From the NCBI RefSeq assembly GCF_020099275.1, contig NZ_CP083646.1, forward strand, positions 744,001-808,000: a stretch of DNA of 64,000 nucleotides, written 5' to 3'. This document shows positions 4,995-13,355 of this stretch, piece by piece. Both the position numbers and the translations under genes were made by a program. How positions within the stretch are numbered: position 1 is the first letter of the stretch; every line of letters begins with the position of its first letter. This stretch comes from Corynebacterium falsenii (GTDB taxonomy: Bacteria > Actinomycetota > Actinomycetes > Mycobacteriales > Mycobacteriaceae). The notes beneath the pieces were generated by a model. That model did not search any database. It had not been told where the DNA came from and saw only the letters and a program-made list of their open reading frames with translations.

Positions 4995-5010
4995 GGTGAT
5001 TCGCATCACA
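4995..5010. promoter_or_regulatory. Candidate GlxR (CRP-type) binding site upstream of the ligase
   Basis: GGTGATTCGCATCACA matches 9 of the 10 conserved positions of TGTGA-N6-TCACA, the corynebacterial GlxR consensus. It is 152 bases before the ligase ATG, compatible with cAMP-dependent control of acid catabolism. Inferred from consensus only. Confidence 0.45.
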
Positions 5011-5161: not shown

Positions 5162-6775
5162 ATGCCGATTTCCAGCCCGCGCGAAGCCGTCGATATCCGC
5201 GAAGAGTCCGTGTACGATGCCGTCTTCGCTGACCTGCGCCCGGAGGAGGAATCCAAGCCCGCCATCATCGACCCACTGACGGGCACCACCACCAGCTACG
5301 GCGAGCTGCGCGCAGCCATCGATGCCTTCGCCGGTGCCCTCGCCGCCCGCGGAGTGCAGTCGAAGGATGTCGTGGCGCTGCACTGCCCGAACTCCCTGCC
5401 GTTCGTGGTGGCGTTTCATGGCATCATGCGCGCCGGGGCAACCGTCACCACGGTGGGGTCCCTCGCTCCGGCTGCTGATATCGCCAAGCAGTTGAAGGAT
5501 TCCGGCGCCACGCTGGTGCTCACGGCCACTCCGCTCGCCGAAGCTGCACGCGGGGGAGCTGCCCAAGCCGGCCTCCCCGACAACTCAGTGATCGACCTCT
5601 TCGCCCCGGAAGGCGGTCGGCAGTCCATGCTTGCGGAAGGCGCGCAGGCCCCGCACCCACACATCGACCCCCGCACCCATGTGGCCGTACTGCCGTATTC
5701 CTCCGGCACCACCGGCATCCCCAAGGGCGTGATGCTCAGCCATTACAACCTCGCGGCGAATATCCGCCAGGTCGCCCCGGCGCTGCAGGATATCGGCCTG
5801 CACGCGGATTCCACCGTCATGGGCGTGCTGCCGTTTTTCCACATCTACGGCATGAACGTGCTGCTCAACAGCACCTTGCGCATCCGCGGCGCCATCGTCA
5901 CGATGCCGAAGTTCGACCTCGAACAGTTCCTCCAGCTCCACCAGCAATACGGCATTGATTTCAGCTTCATCGCCCCGCCCATTGCCGTCGCGCTGGCTAA
6001 GCATCCGATGGTGGGTCAGTACGACCTCTCGGCGTTGAAGTACATTCAGTCCGGTGCCGCGCCGCTGGACAAGAGCCTCGCGGAGGCCGTGCAAAAGCGC
6101 CTCGACGTGGTCGTGGTCCAAGGCTTCGGCATGACTGAAACGTCGCCGGTGACTCACAACTCCATCGCGCGGGTCTCTCCGCTGGATTCCATCGGCTCCC
6201 CCGTGGCGAACACGGAGTTCAAGGTCATGGAGCTCAGCGATGACACCCCGATCGAGCAGTGGGCGGAGATCGCCCCGCCGACCAACCCCGGCGAGCGCAG
6301 CGCGGCCGGCGAGATGTGGGTCCGCGGCCCGCAGGTGATGCTGGGGTACCTCAACAATGAGGAGGCCACCCGCAACACCCTCCTCGCCGATGGTTGGTTG
6401 CGCACGGGCGATATCGTCAACCTCGATCACGAGGGCAATGCCTACGTGGTTGATCGCGCGAAGGAGCTCATTAAGTACAAGGGTTACCAGGTGGCTCCTG
6501 CCGAGCTGGAGGCGCTGATTCTTTCGCGTGAGGATGTCGCGGACGTGGCTGTGGTCGGTCAGCGGCGCGCCGAGGATGGGGAGGAGGTGCCGCACGCTTT
6601 CGTGGTCGCGGCCGGTGGCGCCACCATCGATGAGCAGGAGTTGCTGGGTTGGGTTGCTGAGCGCGTGGCTCCGTATAAGAAGGTTCGGTTTGTTTCTTTT
6701 CTCGACGCCATCCCCAAGTCCTCCACCGGCAAAATCCTCCGGAAGGACCTCAAGGCTTCCCTTCCCGAGGTGTAA
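5162..6775 (+). CDS. Acyl-CoA / 4-coumarate-CoA-type ligase (AMP-forming)
   Basis: A 537-residue ANL-superfamily enzyme that activates a carboxylic acid with ATP and CoA. It shows the P-loop YSSGTTGIPKGVML (about 178-191), the A5-type GFGMTETSPVT, the hinge/A8 region GWLRTGDIV ... DRAKELIKYKGYQVAP, and the catalytic lysine in PKSSTGKILRKDL near the C-terminus. The order of motifs and length fit 4CL/FadD-like ligases. No close promoter was recognised; a GlxR-like site lies 152 bases upstream. It converges on the kinase-dehydrogenase-SDR operon, which suggests it supplies the CoA ester for those enzymes. Substrate not determined. Confidence 0.9.
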   Translation: MPISSPREAVDIREESVYDAVFADLRPEEESKPAIIDPLTGTTTSYGELRAAIDAFAGALAARGVQSKDVVALHCPNSLPFVVAFHGIMRAGATVTTVGSLAPAADIAKQLKDSGATLVLTATPLAEAARGGAAQAGLPDNSVIDLFAPEGGRQSMLAEGAQAPHPHIDPRTHVAVLPYSSGTTGIPKGVMLSHYNLAANIRQVAPALQDIGLHADSTVMGVLPFFHIYGMNVLLNSTLRIRGAIVTMPKFDLEQFLQLHQQYGIDFSFIAPPIAVALAKHPMVGQYDLSALKYIQSGAAPLDKSLAEAVQKRLDVVVVQGFGMTETSPVTHNSIARVSPLDSIGSPVANTEFKVMELSDDTPIEQWAEIAPPTNPGERSAAGEMWVRGPQVMLGYLNNEEATRNTLLADGWLRTGDIVNLDHEGNAYVVDRAKELIKYKGYQVAPAELEALILSREDVADVAVVGQRRAEDGEEVPHAFVVAAGGATIDEQELLGWVAERVAPYKKVRFVSFLDAIPKSSTGKILRKDLKASLPEV

Positions 6776-6802
6776 AGCTGGTGCCGCACCTCTAGCCGCT
6801 CC

Positions 6803-7840
6803 CTACGCCGCGAGCCCGTAACGTGCCGCCATCGTGTGCGCGTAGCCCACGATCCATTCGACCATTTCTGGGGTGGGCGCGCCGGTGACCGCGCGGTTGG
6901 AGGGGTTGTCTTGGACGCGGCGCACCACGCCTTCCACGATGATGGCGACTTTCCACAGGCCCAGGACGTGCCAGAATCCCAGCGGGCCCAGGGATTCTTC
7001 TGAGCGGCCTGTGATGGTGAAGTAGCGTTGCGCCAGTTCGTCCGGGGTGGGGAAGCCGGGTGCCAGGGCGGCCTCGAAGCCGGGGAGTTTCAGCCCATCC
7101 GGGGTGGGCCAGTAGGCCAGCAGTGAGCCGATGTCGGCCAGCGGGTCGCCGAGGGTGGTGAGTTCCCAATCGACCACGGCATTGATCGCGCCGGTCTGCG
7201 GGTCTGCGATGACGTTGCCGAGGTGCAGGTCGCCGTGGACGAGCACGGTGGTCTGTTGGTCGGGTTGGCAGCGCGTGAGCAGGGCCGTGAGTTCGTCGAG
7301 TGCGGGCAGGTCGCGTGTTTTTGTTTTCTCCCACTGCCCGGCCCACCGGCGGAGCTGCCGCGGTGCGTAGGGCTTGTGGGAGGCGAGGTCGGCGAGTCCC
7401 ACCCGGTCGAGGTCCACGGCGTGGATGGCGGCCATGGCGCTGATGAGCCCGTCGGCGATGGTCCTGCGCACGTGCGGGCTGAGTGTTTCTGATGTTGTTG
7501 TCGACGCCACCGTGATGCCCTCCACCGCGGACATTGCGACGACTGGCACGTCGGCGACGTCGTGCGTGGTGCCGTAGATGCGCGGCACGGGAACATCGGT
7601 ATCAGCTAGGGCGGCCATGATGCGCCCTTCGCGGGCGACGTCATGGGCGCTGGCGGCAAGCGTTCCCAGCGGTGGGCGGCGCACCACCACGGCCCGCCCA
7701 GCGGTGTCCGTGGCGGTGTAGGTCAAGTTGGATTGGCCGGACCCGATGCGTTCGAGGTCGACGGGTCCGTGGGTGCCGGCCACGTGCTCGAGCCAGGTGG
7801 CTAACGTGGCGGCGTCGAACGGAGAAGATTTAGCGGTCAC
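6803..7840 (-). CDS. APH-like phosphotransferase (ACAD10/11- and LvaA-type acyl-CoA kinase candidate)
   Basis: A 345-residue protein with the protein-kinase-like APH fold: glycine loop GSGQSNLTYTATD, invariant lysine region VVVRRPP, catalytic HGDLHLGN and Mg-binding VVDWELTTLGDPLADIG. Annotated family members are often called aminoglycoside phosphotransferases, but the partner gene argues otherwise. It overlaps by 11 bases with an acyl-CoA dehydrogenase, the arrangement that is fused in human ACAD10/ACAD11 and split in the Pseudomonas putida levulinate operon (LvaA/LvaC). In those systems the kinase phosphorylates the 4-hydroxyl of a 4-hydroxyacyl-CoA. Last gene of the leftward operon. Substrate here is inferred. 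Confidence 0.82.
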   Translation of the reverse strand: MTAKSSPFDAATLATWLEHVAGTHGPVDLERIGSGQSNLTYTATDTAGRAVVVRRPPLGTLAASAHDVAREGRIMAALADTDVPVPRIYGTTHDVADVPVVAMSAVEGITVASTTTSETLSPHVRRTIADGLISAMAAIHAVDLDRVGLADLASHKPYAPRQLRRWAGQWEKTKTRDLPALDELTALLTRCQPDQQTTVLVHGDLHLGNVIADPQTGAINAVVDWELTTLGDPLADIGSLLAYWPTPDGLKLPGFEAALAPGFPTPDELAQRYFTITGRSEESLGPLGFWHVLGLWKVAIIVEGVVRRVQDNPSNRAVTGAPTPEMVEWIVGYAHTMAARYGLAA

Positions 7841-9035
7841 GGTATTTCCTCAATTCGGCGCGGGCGATGGTCATGCGGTGTACTTCGTCGGGGCCGTCGG
7901 CCAGGCGGAGGGTGCGCAGGCCCGCGTACATGGCGGCGAGGGGGGTGTCGTCGGTGACACCTTCGCCACCGAAGACCTGAATGGCTTGGTCCACCACGCG
8001 CAGCGCCACGGCGGGGGCGGCGACCTTGATCGCGGCGATTTCCTGCCGGGCTTCCTTGTTGCTTGCGGTGTCCATCATCCATGCGGCCTTGAGGGTCAGC
8101 AGCCGGGCTTGTTCGATGTCGATGCGGGCTTGGGCGATCTGATCGCGGATATTGTCGCGGTCCGCTAGCCGCGTGCCGAAGGTGGATCGCGAGAGCGCGC
8201 GGGTGCATAGGAGCTCCAGCGCGCGTTCGGCCATGCCCAGCGAGCGCATGCAGTGGTGGATGCGCCCGGGACCCAGGCGGTCTTGGGCGATGCGGAAGCC
8301 TGCGCCCTCGCCGCCGAGGATGTCCTTGTCCGGCACGAACACGTCCGCGAATTCCACTTCGGCGTGCCCTTCGCGGTCGTGGTAGCCGAAGACGGGGAGG
8401 TTTCTGAGGATTGTGACGCCATCAGCGTGCGCGGGCACCACGAGCATTGATTGCTGGCGATGCACCTCTGCCTCGGGGTTGGTTTTGCCCATGACGATCA
8501 TGACCTCGAGGTGCGGGTGCATACCGTTGGAGGTGAACCACTTCCGGCCGTTGAGGATGAAACCACCCGTGGTGCGCTTCATGGACATGGCGACGTTGGT
8601 GGCGTCGGAGGAGGAGATGCCGGGTTCGGTCATGGCGAACGCGGAGCGGATCGTGCCGTCGAGGAGGGGGCGGAGATATTTTTCCTTGTGCTCGTCTGTG
8701 CCGTAGAGCTCGAAGATTTCCATGTTGCCGGTGTCCGGGGCGCTGCAGTTGCAGGCTTCGGGGGCGAGGTGGATGGACCGGCCCATGATTTCGGCGAGTG
8801 GGGCGTAGTCGGTGTTGCTGAGGCCCGGGTCGCGGTGGGGGTGGAACAGGTTCCACAGGCCGCGGGATCGGGCCTCGGCTTTGAGGTCATCGAGCACGGC
8901 GGGGTAGTGGTGGGGGTCGCCGGAGTCGGCCATTTGGCGGGCGGCGATGGGTTCGGCGAGGTAGACGCATTCGTCCATGAAGGCGGTGAGGCGGCGCTGG
9001 TAGTCCAGGCTGCGGTCGGAGGGGCGGAAGTCCAT
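7830..9035 (-). CDS. Acyl-CoA dehydrogenase, ACAD11-like
   Basis: A 401-residue flavoprotein of the acyl-CoA dehydrogenase family. Motifs include NCSAPDTGNMEIF (about 108-120), FAMTEPGISSSDATN, the FAD-binding WFTSNG region, FGTRLADRDNIRDQIA, and the C-terminal QVFGGEGVTDDTPLA with LADGPDEVHRMTIARAELRK. The APDTGNME and LADGPDEVH segments are as I recall them from mammalian ACAD11, and differ from ordinary beta-oxidation enzymes. With the neighbouring kinase it would eliminate phosphate from a phosphorylated hydroxyacyl-CoA to give the enoyl-CoA. It follows the SDR gene by three bases and overlaps the kinase by 11, so the three are one operon. Confidence 0.88.
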   Translation of the reverse strand: MDFRPSDRSLDYQRRLTAFMDECVYLAEPIAARQMADSGDPHHYPAVLDDLKAEARSRGLWNLFHPHRDPGLSNTDYAPLAEIMGRSIHLAPEACNCSAPDTGNMEIFELYGTDEHKEKYLRPLLDGTIRSAFAMTEPGISSSDATNVAMSMKRTTGGFILNGRKWFTSNGMHPHLEVMIVMGKTNPEAEVHRQQSMLVVPAHADGVTILRNLPVFGYHDREGHAEVEFADVFVPDKDILGGEGAGFRIAQDRLGPGRIHHCMRSLGMAERALELLCTRALSRSTFGTRLADRDNIRDQIAQARIDIEQARLLTLKAAWMMDTASNKEARQEIAAIKVAAPAVALRVVDQAIQVFGGEGVTDDTPLAAMYAGLRTLRLADGPDEVHRMTIARAELRKYRDR

Positions 9036-9038
9036 GGG

Positions 9039-9818
9039 TTAACCGCCGATCAGCATTCCGCCATCGACCACGAGGTTTTCACCGGTGATCCACGGCGTGC
9101 CTGGGCCGGCGAGGAAGGCGATGGCTTCAGCGATGTCTTCTGGTTCGCCAATGCGGCGCAAGGGGCTGAGCTTGGCTGCAGCGGCTTCGTCGTTTTTCCA
9201 GAGGGCTTCGGAGAGTTTGGTGCGCACCACGCCAGGGGAGATCGCGTTGACGCGGATGGCGGGGGCGAGTTCGCGTGCCATTTGTTTGGTGAGGTGGATA
9301 AGGGCTGCCTTTGATGCGTTGTACACGCCGATGTGGTCCTCCATGGTGAGCGCGCCGATGGAGGAGACGTTGACGATCGCTGCGCCCTCGCGGTTGCCCA
9401 AGCCTGCCTTGATTGCTTCTCCGGCCCAGACGGCCGGGGCGATGGTGTTGATCTGGAACACCTTGGTCATGATTTCTGCCGATTGGGCCACGACTGGGCC
9501 GAAGGCGGGGTTGGTGCCTGCGTTGTTGATGAGGATATCGAGGGAGCCGAAGGTGTCGGTGGCGAGGGCACAGGCGGCTGTGGCGGCTTGGGGATCGGCA
9601 ACGTGCGCGGCGGTGCCGATGACGCGGCCGGCGTGGGGGCTGATGGTGCGGGCTTCGTTGGTGAGCGCGGTGGCGGCGGAGTCGACGGTGTCTTCCTTGC
9701 GGCCGGTGATGAGGACGTTGGCGCCGGAGGCTGCGAGCAACCGGGCGGTGGCGTACCCGATGCCGCGTGTGCCGCCGGTGATCAAGGCGATGCGGTCTGT
9801 GAAGTCGTATGAGGTCAT
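9039..9818 (-). CDS. Short-chain dehydrogenase/reductase
   Basis: A classical SDR of about 259 residues: NAD(P)-binding TGGTRGIGYA near the N-terminus, NNAG, the catalytic serine in VNVSSIG, YNASK with the catalytic Tyr and Lys, and a C-terminal ITGENLVVDGGM. First gene of the operon with the acyl-CoA dehydrogenase and kinase. In the levulinate pathway the equivalent SDR (LvaD) reduces the 4-keto acyl-CoA to the 4-hydroxy form, so a keto/hydroxyacyl-CoA substrate is a fair inference. I chose the ATG at 9818 because the family starts MTxYDF-like. An ATG at 9827 adds three residues and would sit right at a possible transcription start. Confidence 0.87.
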   Translation of the reverse strand: MTSYDFTDRIALITGGTRGIGYATARLLAASGANVLITGRKEDTVDSAATALTNEARTISPHAGRVIGTAAHVADPQAATAACALATDTFGSLDILINNAGTNPAFGPVVAQSAEIMTKVFQINTIAPAVWAGEAIKAGLGNREGAAIVNVSSIGALTMEDHIGVYNASKAALIHLTKQMARELAPAIRVNAISPGVVRTKLSEALWKNDEAAAAKLSPLRRIGEPEDIAEAIAFLAGPGTPWITGENLVVDGGMLIGG

Positions 9819-9834
9819 GCTCCACATTTTAGGG

Positions 9835-9848
9835 TGAATCTAGATTCA
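9835..9848. promoter_or_regulatory. Perfect palindrome, likely operator of the SDR-dehydrogenase-kinase operon
   Basis: TGAATCTAGATTCA is a perfect 14-base palindrome 17 bases before the SDR start codon. It contains TAGATT, which could serve as a -10 element on the minus strand, so a bound repressor would block the promoter. Size and symmetry suit a TetR-type regulator; the regulator is not identified. Confidence 0.5.
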
Positions 9849-10132
9849 ATTGAGCGAGATTTGGGTTTTTGCGCAGAGGAAAATTCATTGCGGAGGTGGG
9901 GCAAGTAGCCCTAAGTGGGGGTGTTTCCTAGAGTGAAAATGGGAGAAGTTGTAACGCAAATCTGGGAGTTTTCGACAACTGTTTACCTGCTGATGTGATC
10001 GTGCTGAGATCGTAACGTAACACGGCCGAAACATTTCCTGAGAAAATCGTGCAATGTCACTGAGAAGATTCTGTCAATGAGGGTATATCGTCATGAACGG
10101 TTAGCGTTCGCTGACGTCTTCGGAGTTTCGGT
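9849..10132. other. Intergenic stretch left of the insertion sequence
   Basis: About 280 bases between the SDR operon and the IS. No reading frame with plausible coding character was seen. A TAACGTAACA motif occurs near 10013. Probably the promoter region of the SDR operon plus the residue of the IS target. Confidence 0.4.
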
Positions 10133-11590
10133 GGCTCTTCACGTTTCGGAGTGCGTAGTTGACCGCGGGGTGGGGTTCGGGGTGGCACAACATATAGGGG
10201 TCCTGGCCGGTACAAGATGAGAGTTACGACGCTTCCATCCAACCGAACCAGGACCCTACTGTGCAGCCTACTACTGGCAACCTCGTCGCCGACACCATCT
10301 GCCGCACCGCCGAGATCGGCCTGACGATCACCGGTGCCGCCGACGCCGGAAACATCACCATCATCGACGCCACACCCGTGTCCGCGAGCAACACCTGCCC
10401 TGACTGCGCACAATCCGGGAAGCTTCGCGACCACGTCCTTCGCCGTCTCGTCGATCTGCCGGTGGTCGGGTTCCCGACCCGTCTGCACGTCCGCGTGCCC
10501 CGCTTCACCTGTACGAATGCCTCCTGTGGCAGGAAGATCTTCCAGGCCACACTGAGCTGCGCCGATGACGGAGCGAAACTCACCCACCGGGTGACCCGCT
10601 GGATCCTCCAGCGCCTCGCGGTCGACCGGATGAGCGTGTCTGCCACCGCCAAGGCACTCGGCGTGGGTTGGGAGCTGGTCAATCAGGTCGCCCTCGAGGC
10701 CTGCCGCAAGCTTGTCTACGACGACTCTCCGCATCTGGACGGGGTGCGCATCCTCGGGGTGGATGAGCACGTATGGAAACACACCCGAAAGTCAGGTCAG
10801 CCATCCAGTCTGGTGACCATCCTCGTCGACCTCACGCCCCTGGTCGACGGCCGTGGCCCTGCCCGACTGCTGGACATGCGCCCCGGCCGCAGTGCACAGG
10901 TGCTGCGCACCTGGCTGCAGGAACGCGATCCTGCTTTCCGGGAAAATGTGCAGGTGGTGACCATGGACGGCTTCACCGGTTACGCCTCAGCCGTCGATCA
11001 GATGCTCCCGGATGCCACCAAGGTCATGGACCCCTTCCACGTGGTGCATCTGGCAGCCGACAAACTCACCGGATGCCGGCAACGGCTCCAACGAGAGACC
11101 ACCGGACACCGGGGCCGCAAGGACGATCCGCTGTACAAGCACCGTCGCACGCTACTGACCAGGACGGACTACCTCACCGAGCGGCAGAAGCAGCGCCTGG
11201 ACATGCTGTGGGCCACCGATGACGAATACGTGGCCCTGGAGGTGACCTGGATGTTCTATCAGGACATGATTGCGGCTTACGGGCATCCGCAGAAGTCGGA
11301 GGGCAAGAAGCTCATGAGCAGGGTGATCAACAGCATTCGTAAGGGCCTACCGAAGGGGCTGGAAGAGCTCGCGCAACTGGGTCGGACATTGTGGCGTCGG
11401 CGTGAGGATGTCCTGGCGTACTTCGATATCGGGGCGTCCAACGGTCCGGTCGAGGCGATCAACGGACGGCTCGAGCATCTACGCGGGATTGCTCTGGGGT
11501 TCAGGAATCTCAACCACTACATCTTGCGGTCACTGATCCACTCCGGCCAGATACACAACCGGATCAACGCACTCTAAATCGTGAAGAGCC
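10133..11590 (+). mobile_element. ISL3-family insertion sequence, 1458 bases
   Basis: Bounded by imperfect terminal inverted repeats. The left end starts GGCTCTTCACGTTTCGGAG at 10133 and the right end, read inward from 11590, starts GGCTCTTCACGATTTAGAG. The GGCTCTTC tip and GAGTGCG inner part are typical of ISL3 elements such as the corynebacterial IS31831 group. It carries one intact transposase gene. The eight bases on the left (GTTTCGGT) and right (GGCAAACG) differ, so the expected 8-base target duplication is absent. Confidence 0.88.
10261..11577 (+). CDS. ISL3-family transposase
   Basis: A 438-residue transposase, full length for the family. The N-terminal zinc-finger-like part holds CPDCAQSGKL and CTNASCGRK, followed by a helix-turn-helix region (VTRWILQRLAVDRMSVSATAKAL). 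The DDE catalytic domain has the first aspartate in ILGVDEHVWK (about 160-170), the second in VVTMDGFTGY, and the glutamate in NGPVEAINGRLEHLRG near the C-terminus. It starts with GTG 128 bases inside the left inverted repeat. No internal stop, so the element looks functional. Confidence 0.93.
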   Translation: MQPTTGNLVADTICRTAEIGLTITGAADAGNITIIDATPVSASNTCPDCAQSGKLRDHVLRRLVDLPVVGFPTRLHVRVPRFTCTNASCGRKIFQATLSCADDGAKLTHRVTRWILQRLAVDRMSVSATAKALGVGWELVNQVALEACRKLVYDDSPHLDGVRILGVDEHVWKHTRKSGQPSSLVTILVDLTPLVDGRGPARLLDMRPGRSAQVLRTWLQERDPAFRENVQVVTMDGFTGYASAVDQMLPDATKVMDPFHVVHLAADKLTGCRQRLQRETTGHRGRKDDPLYKHRRTLLTRTDYLTERQKQRLDMLWATDDEYVALEVTWMFYQDMIAAYGHPQKSEGKKLMSRVINSIRKGLPKGLEELAQLGRTLWRRREDVLAYFDIGASNGPVEAINGRLEHLRGIALGFRNLNHYILRSLIHSGQIHNRINAL

Positions 11591-12713: not shown

Positions 12714-13355
12714 TCAGGCTTGTTCCAACCCCAGCGTCCGGAACCACACCTCATCGACCGTTTCCGCCAACTGTTCCACCGTGTACTCGGAGAGGAAGTT
12801 GCCCTCCACGAACGCGTTATACGCCAAACGGCTCACCATGACTGACAGGGCTGCACTGAGCATCTCCGGATCCTCGCCCGCGCGCACAATTCCCTTGTCC
12901 TGCAGTGTGCGAATCATCCCCGCATTGCGTTTCACGAACCGCGTCGCCCGCTCCTGGCGCTGACGGTGAAACGCCGGGTCAGATAGCGCTACCTGCTCCA
13001 TGAGCGCCATCTCCTTCGCATTCTTCCGGAAAGACTCCAAGTAGAAGCGATTGGCATGGCTGATCGAGCCCTTGACCTCCTCAACCGTGTCGCCGTCCGT
13101 GCGCAGCGTGCGGTTGCGGCCCCGCATCTCCTGCTCCACCTGCTCTAACACTGCCGCCAGCAGCTCGGAGCGGTCCTCGAAATAGGTGTAGACCGTCCCC
13201 ACCGAGCAACCCGCCTGAGCCGCGATGTCCGTCAGCCGCGCGCTGTGGTAGCCGTCTTGGACGAATACTCGCCGCGCCGCAGCCAGGATCGCCTGCCGCC
13301 GCGCCGCCGCGCGCGGCGATTCCTGGGCGCCGCCTTGTGTCCTGTCCTGTGCCAT
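12714..13355 (-). CDS. TetR-family transcriptional regulator
   Basis: A 213-residue repressor-type protein. The N-terminal helix-turn-helix (about residues 16-62) reads RRQAILAAARRVFVQDGYHS ... IAAQAGCSVGTVYTYFEDRSELLAAVL, the TetR DNA-binding pattern. The C-terminal ligand-binding part contains HANRFYLESFRKNAKEMALMEQV, resembling TetR_C domains of lipid-metabolism regulators. Divergent from the nucleoside hydrolase with only 43 bases between the start codons, so it may control that gene and itself. Ligand unknown. Confidence 0.88.
   Translation of the reverse strand: MAQDRTQGGAQESPRAAARRQAILAAARRVFVQDGYHSARLTDIAAQAGCSVGTVYTYFEDRSELLAAVLEQVEQEMRGRNRTLRTDGDTVEEVKGSISHANRFYLESFRKNAKEMALMEQVALSDPAFHRQRQERATRFVKRNAGMIRTLQDKGIVRAGEDPEMLSAALSVMVSRLAYNAFVEGNFLSEYTVEQLAETVDEVWFRTLGLEQA

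Follow-up and report, generated by a model that had tools for sequence, protein, structure and literature searches.

The breakdown of 4-hydroxylated acids by a 4-hydroxyacyl-CoA kinase and a dehydrogenase has been described for Pseudomonas, for Burkholderia enzymes, and for mammals. Here, a related gene set is described in Corynebacterium falsenii, consisting of an acyl-CoA ligase gene and a three-gene operon for a short-chain dehydrogenase/reductase (SDR), an acyl-CoA dehydrogenase (ACAD), and a kinase of the aminoglycoside phosphotransferase (APH) fold. The genes lie in a 64,000-nucleotide stretch, referred to below as the window (positions 744001-808000 of the single contig of 2,677,377 bases that makes up the genome), and coordinates are counted from its first letter. 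This chemistry is already known. The operon in Corynebacterium, together with its palindrome and TetR-family regulator, is a new case of it, in the form of a defined operon with an operator-like site. A literature search, with most subscription papers outside its coverage, gave no report of a corynebacterial module of this kind among the papers listed. The original prediction for this locus, made from the sequence alone, was of a levulinate-like 4-hydroxyacid module. Its overall interpretation is supported by the comparisons described here. As far as these reach, the kinase and the ACAD did not fall with unrelated APH and short-chain ACAD clades, the outcome that would have refuted the prediction; the test of the ACAD was strong and that of the kinase weaker.

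The closest described systems include ACAD10/11 of mammals and the lva and qsd operons. In mammalian ACAD10 and ACAD11, an N-terminal kinase is fused to an ACAD. In models of mouse ACAD11, R626, H634, and R637 touch the 4-phosphate and Asp753 is the base, and substitutions in the R626/HCMR region abolish the ACAD step (PMC12440821). Burkholderia orthologues stood in for either ACAD10 domain in vitro (PMC11342911). The lva operon of Pseudomonas putida and P. citronellolis divides the roles among a ligase (LvaE), an SDR (LvaD), an APH-like kinase (LvaA), and an ACAD (LvaC); LvaB is essential in P. putida, but no LvaB was detected in the cluster of P. citronellolis (PMC6692424). The same source credits Rand et al. 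with finding homologues of lvaABCD among the Alpha-, Beta-, and Gammaproteobacteria. The UniProt accession of LvaA is given as Q88G01 in PMC11342911. In Rhodococcus, QsdA opens gamma-lactones and FadD/QsdC activates the products (PMC3689677, PMC6262395), and the qsd operon of R. erythropolis is under TetR control (PMC6262395).

The dehydrogenase and the kinase

All four enzymes named in the original prediction were recovered by their Pfam domains. The ligase (5162-6775, plus strand; AMP-binding, 3.7e-81, and AMP-binding_C), a candidate for the LvaE role, faces the minus-strand operon, which is read in the order SDR-ACAD-kinase. The SDR (9039-9818; adh_short_C2, 9.7e-56) would take the role of LvaD, as a 4-oxoacyl-CoA reductase or an epimerising dehydrogenase; its open reading frame (ORF) extends to 9827, and the ATG at 9818 is an internal start chosen in the earlier work. 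The ACAD (7830-9035; Acyl-CoA_dh_1, 2.6e-39) would convert 4-phosphoacyl-CoA to 2-enoyl-CoA, as LvaC, and the kinase (6803-7840; APH, 1.6e-46) would act as a 4-hydroxyacyl-CoA 4-kinase, as LvaA or the ACAD11 kinase domain. The ACAD and kinase genes share the predicted 11 bases (7830-7840), with the ACAD first in transcription order. The proposal that this overlap echoes the ACAD10/11 fusion fails, however, because here the ACAD gene precedes that of the kinase, whereas the kinase is N-terminal in the mammalian proteins. The corynebacterial pair also differs from these in being two separate proteins, with no HAD domain found by Pfam in the kinase ORF.

The four best solved relatives of the window ACAD are mouse ACAD11 (8v3u, 4e-118, and 8v3v), the 4hr3 protein, and human ACAD11 (2wbi); the next is an ordinary ACAD, at 1.2e-36. 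Identity to mouse ACAD11 is 50% over 397 columns, and the segments APDTGNME and LADGPDEVH, by which the protein had been predicted to be of ACAD11 type, are present in the translation and identical to those of the mouse protein. In the alignment, Arg253, the HCMR motif at 261-264, and Asp380 correspond to mouse R626, H634-R637, and D753, respectively; the stretch from the R626 equivalent through HCMR reads RLGPGRIHHCMR (residues 253-264), and the first D of LADGPDEVH is Asp380, the equivalent of the catalytic Asp753 (mouse chain 8v3v shows N at this position). The phosphate-handling residues and the Asp were kept in all 60 chosen family rows, 51 with HCMR and 9 with HAMR. Nine stretches of the C. 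falsenii genome match PF00441, namely the window ACAD, seven further ACADs that were tested, and L064, which was left out. In the seven, only the general Arg (R631) is kept, and R626, H634, R637, and D753 occur in none.

In a tree of 67 chosen ACAD rows, the seven ordinary ACADs separated from the window protein and mouse ACAD11 with a support of 99, with long branches flagged. The tree position and the phosphate-handling residues identify the window ACAD as a member of the ACAD10/11 type rather than an ordinary beta-oxidation enzyme, as predicted. By the same tree, it is not specially near ACAD11, because it falls in an actinobacterial clade (100) whereas mouse ACAD11 falls in a mostly proteobacterial group (97). 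The trees were of a 'quick' type with SH-aLRT support only, and were built from rows that we selected, P. putida LvaA and LvaC not being among them; each locus contributed its single best match, and matches below length limits were excluded. No P. putida protein was among the best 120 of about 8000 matches in each of two protein searches, and a class-wide search aimed at P. putida LvaA/LvaC matched 21 of 185 genomes.

HAMR in place of HCMR was seen at eight loci (L178, L179, L006, L010, L025, L048, L049, and L101) and in 4hr3. Five of these loci lack an adjacent kinase and three have one; the variant may mark a change of substrate.

The best solved relatives of the kinase are 3dxp (8e-46), 9o56, and the ACAD11 kinase domain (2e-30), whereas the best drug kinase among them reaches 1.8e-9. 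The protein is 31% identical to the mouse ACAD11 kinase domain over 280 residues, and its Asp204, Asn209, and Arg161 correspond to the catalytic D220 and N225 and to the CoA-side R176 of the mouse enzyme. The same letters occupy six positions in 57 of 59 family rows (L044 differs at one, L101 at three). An arginine beside the alpha-C Glu was counted as mouse residue 84, equivalent to window Arg70, which does not match the published number, 86. The kinase tree held just two unrelated APH-fold rows, on branches of 7 and 10, with a support of 48 for the outgroup branch. No second kinase copy was detected in the genome at E 1e-3, and the APH family has three additional matches there, one of which scores below the cut-off. 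Wider relatives carry the source name 'aminoglycoside phosphotransferase', a label that the original prediction had called misleading; resistance-enzyme models match the protein far under their cut-offs. By sequence similarity the kinase is related to the kinase domain of ACAD11, and it is most likely a lipid-catabolic enzyme and not a resistance enzyme.

The nearest solved structures to the SDR are those of DHRS4 (1.7e-47). In a tree of 47 chosen SDR rows, the module SDRs of Corynebacterium formed one group with those of other actinobacteria (93).

Conservation and candidate regulation of the operon

The ACAD was found at E 1e-60 in 29 of 242 Corynebacterium genomes, in 27 of these at an identity of at least 72%; the remaining two, G456 and G481 (50-53%), are not counted among the 27 genomes with a close ACAD. 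The ACAD of C. variabile, a food-associated species, is 75% identical to that of the window. The three genes are contiguous in the order SDR-ACAD-kinase in each of the 27, although the set is truncated in G530. The kinase was found at E 1e-20 in 30 genomes, which are the 29 with the ACAD and G501, so that the two genes co-occur in 29 of the 30 genomes having either (Fisher 1e-36; the Fisher tests given here ignore relatedness, and species are not independent). Compared by match positions, 24 of the 27 module genomes have the ligase less than 4 kb from the ACAD, whereas in G590, G625, and G530 its match is on a different contig. The module seems to be decaying in G530 (L181), which retains just the terminal part of the kinase and 225 residues from the start of the ACAD, and in G501, where a kinase with a stop and a ligase were found with no ACAD match.

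In the wider family, ACAD11-like genes are ordinary, being present in 230 of 251 genomes and in 30 of 31 genera. Outside the genus, 17 loci were opened; six have the kinase adjacent or one gene off (L040, L042, L044, L046, L047, and L050), and four have an SDR of about 50% identity (L042, L046, L050, and L051). An ACAD-like ORF lies within about 2 kb in 23 of 36 named loci found through the kinase, those of L100 and L101 being below 40% identity; the C. jeikeium and C. glyciniphilum loci found in this way reappear in the 242-genome set.

A palindrome, TGAATCTAGATTCA, occurs once in the window (9835-9848), and its end lies 16 bases ahead of the SDR ATG at 9818. Its presence before the operon had been predicted, and it proved to be conserved. 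Among 31 stretches upstream of SDR genes (27 corynebacterial and 4 from other genera), the best match lies within two mismatches of the window palindrome in 17 of the 27 corynebacterial loci, and TGAATCNNGATTCA is carried by 17 of the 27 stretches. None was found in the four non-corynebacterial stretches, in which the SDR is not the leading gene. Among 620 shuffled controls made from upstream stretches, none came within two mismatches, 4 within three, and 24 within four. Across whole genomes, TTGAATCNNGATTCA occurs in 25 of 242, and a control pattern occurs once; 15 of the 27 module genomes have it, at one site each, which lies on the SDR side of the ACAD and about 0.8-0.9 kb away from it. From this pattern of conservation and position, the palindrome looks like an operator.

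A TetR-family regulator gene (12714-13355, minus strand; TetR_N, 3.3e-14) lies beyond the palindrome in the window and is a candidate repressor of the operon. TetR homologues were present near the module in all eight other corynebacterial loci that were opened; three TetR proteins, including that of the window, were checked with Pfam, and resemble the FasR and ScbR models below the cut-off. When the short stretch ahead of the SDR was searched, a TetR gene was found at 19 of 29 loci, all 19 being among the 26 module loci of other genomes. It was present at 16 of 16 loci outside the window with the exact palindrome, compared with 3 of 10 without it. The TetR protein is a candidate to bind the palindrome. 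In the window, the TetR gene is separated from the operon by an ISL3-family insertion sequence (10133-11590) with inverted ends GGCTCTTCACG and a transposase ORF (10261-11577, plus strand; profile match 3.6e-105). No target repeat of this element was seen in the 10 flanking bases.

Ahead of the ligase, the original prediction had noted a GlxR-like site. We take GGTGATTCGCATCACA (4995-5010), separated from the ligase ATG by 151 bases, to be such a site, as it carries 9 of the 10 consensus letters. In seven other corynebacterial loci, in which ORF starts were used as ligase starts, a site with one mismatch was present in two, with two mismatches in two, and none was found in three. A study of C. 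variabile reports GlxR sites before almost all fad genes, as data not shown (PMC3219685), and the ligase is perhaps under GlxR control. For another regulator candidate, FamR of C. jeikeium, no paper on a binding site was among those listed by the literature search.

Proposed pathway and competing explanations

The gene content, residues, and conserved linkage make it likely that the module channels fatty acids with a 4-oxo or 4-hydroxy group to beta-oxidation. In a chain drawn from the ACAD10/11 papers (PMC12440821, PMC11342911) and the lva account (PMC6692424), the ligase would convert the acid to its acyl-CoA ester, and the SDR would reduce 4-oxoacyl-CoA to 4-hydroxyacyl-CoA, or swap stereoisomers via the 4-oxo form. 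The kinase would phosphorylate the 4-hydroxyl group, and the ACAD, with a redox-cycling FAD and Asp380, would expel the phosphate to give 2-enoyl-CoA, which ordinary beta-oxidation would finish. A TetR repressor bound at TTGAATCNNGATTCA in the SDR promoter would switch the SDR-ACAD-kinase operon. The operator-like site, together with gene removals, would offer a simple genetic handle on the natural substrate.

Several observations weigh against this assignment. The palindrome is absent from 6 of the 27 module loci and altered in 4 (3-4 differences from that of the window), and TTGAATCNNGATTCA is also present in 10 of the 215 genomes that lack a close ACAD. One of two unrelated APH-fold proteins of the genome has the same six kinase letters, which makes these residues weakly diagnostic. 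The ligase is not confined to the module, as 68 of 242 Corynebacterium genomes have a match at 1e-130. Proteobacterial module SDRs stem from several lineages in the SDR tree, so that the SDR role is not fixed by descent. Because 11 of the 17 loci from other genera have no kinase beside the ACAD, this enzyme may also serve other purposes or work with other partners. Neither a transporter nor an LvaR-type regulator was found by Pfam among the 13 ORFs scanned in the first 16 kb.

The strongest competing explanation, that the module is specifically a levulinate (4-oxopentanoate) pathway like that of P. putida, is possible but doubtful. The same four enzyme roles are present as in lvaE, D, A, and C, and the missing LvaB is no objection, because the P. 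citronellolis LA18T cluster also lacks it (PMC6692424). The overlap leaves no room for LvaB between the ACAD and the kinase, and no search directed at LvaB was made elsewhere. However, no counterpart of LvaR, LvaF, or LvaG was found among the 13 ORFs scanned, which are not every ORF of that region; compared by roles, the corynebacterial operon has a TetR gene and TTGAATCNNGATTCA instead of the sigma-54 regulator LvaR. The nearest solved structures to the ligase are 4-coumarate-CoA ligases (4e-104), and ACAD10/11 act on C6 4-hydroxyacyl-CoA as well and are thought to accept longer substrates (PMC12440821, PMC11342911). Of the original prediction, the 4-oxo/4-hydroxy acid reading is supported, but levulinate itself is just one candidate substrate, and longer 4-oxo or 4-hydroxy acids fit equally well.

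A gamma-lactone pathway, in which a lactone would be opened to a 4-hydroxy acid that enters the module, is unlikely, somewhat more so than a levulinate route. It is modelled on Rhodococcus qsd, which likewise has an acyl-CoA ligase and TetR control and would share the 4-hydroxy acid intermediate, and an APH kinase, an ACAD11-like ACAD, a phosphotriesterase, and a fatty acid-CoA ligase are joined in one Tsukamurella plasmid run (L157). A phosphotriesterase-type route is improbable as a rule, however, because the family of QsdA (PF02126) has no match in the C. falsenii genome, where other lactonase families were not searched, and occurs in just one of the 27 module genomes (G585). That the kinase acts on another small molecule or drug and the ACAD is an ordinary beta-oxidation enzyme, as the aminoglycoside phosphotransferase names and the frequent separation of the two genes outside the genus might suggest, is highly improbable given their co-occurrence in fixed order, the lack of the ACAD11-specific residues in the seven other ACADs, and the poor match to resistance-enzyme models.

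4-Hydroxy acids arise from lipid peroxides. Within the preferred reading, of 4-oxo and 4-hydroxy fatty acids entering beta-oxidation, lipophilic skin corynebacteria of the C. jeikeium type might use the module to eat oxidised human skin lipid; we regard this as a very speculative extension. Squalene and ozone give 4-oxopentanal and levulinic acid (PMC8529706). If true, the skin flora and our peroxisomes and mitochondria would share one detour for 4-hydroxylated acids, which in the skin flora would run under its own TetR switch.

Neighbouring genes and related clusters

A carnitine acyltransferase gene (PF00755; 2266-3996, minus strand) lies near the ligase, with one gene, for a phosphoribosyltransferase, between them. 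It is probably broken in this C. falsenii strain because of an in-frame TAG at 2527-2529. The gene was considered as a module member and rejected, in view of its stop codon in the window and the 16 module genomes without it. It occurs in 11 of the 27 genomes with a close ACAD, compared with 33 of 242 overall (Fisher 1.7e-4), directly adjoins the ligase in G479, G511, G512, and G599, and is divergent to it in three named C. jeikeium-type loci. No RNA families were found in the first 16 kb of the window. Elsewhere in the genome (G000:C1:1105843-1107408), a second ligase paralogue matches at 50% identity, and the matching stretch contains one in-frame TAG.

A histidine phosphatase gene lies near the module in several Corynebacterium loci (4826-5668 in L066, of C. 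jeikeium type, and 12066-12704 in L034), as well as in proteobacterial kinase-SDR-ACAD clusters (L152 and L153) and in P. citronellolis. The Caballeronia and Azoarcus plasmid clusters (histidine phosphatase-APH-SDR-ACAD) resemble the corynebacterial module in keeping kinase, SDR, and ACAD together, but their SDR comes from another lineage, and a search for a phosphatase remnant between the palindrome and the TetR gene of the window gave nothing convincing (best E 0.065). In L066, nrdI- and nrdF-like ribonucleotide reductase genes (9759-11277) lie between the kinase and the ligase. The Tsukamurella run (L157; plasmid NZ_LR134470.1, 34766-49971) holds, on one strand, an HAD phosphatase, as in ACAD10, the APH kinase, the ACAD11-like ACAD, two more ACADs, the phosphotriesterase, and the fatty acid-CoA ligase; from its gene content, it looks like a pathway from gamma-lactones to beta-oxidation.

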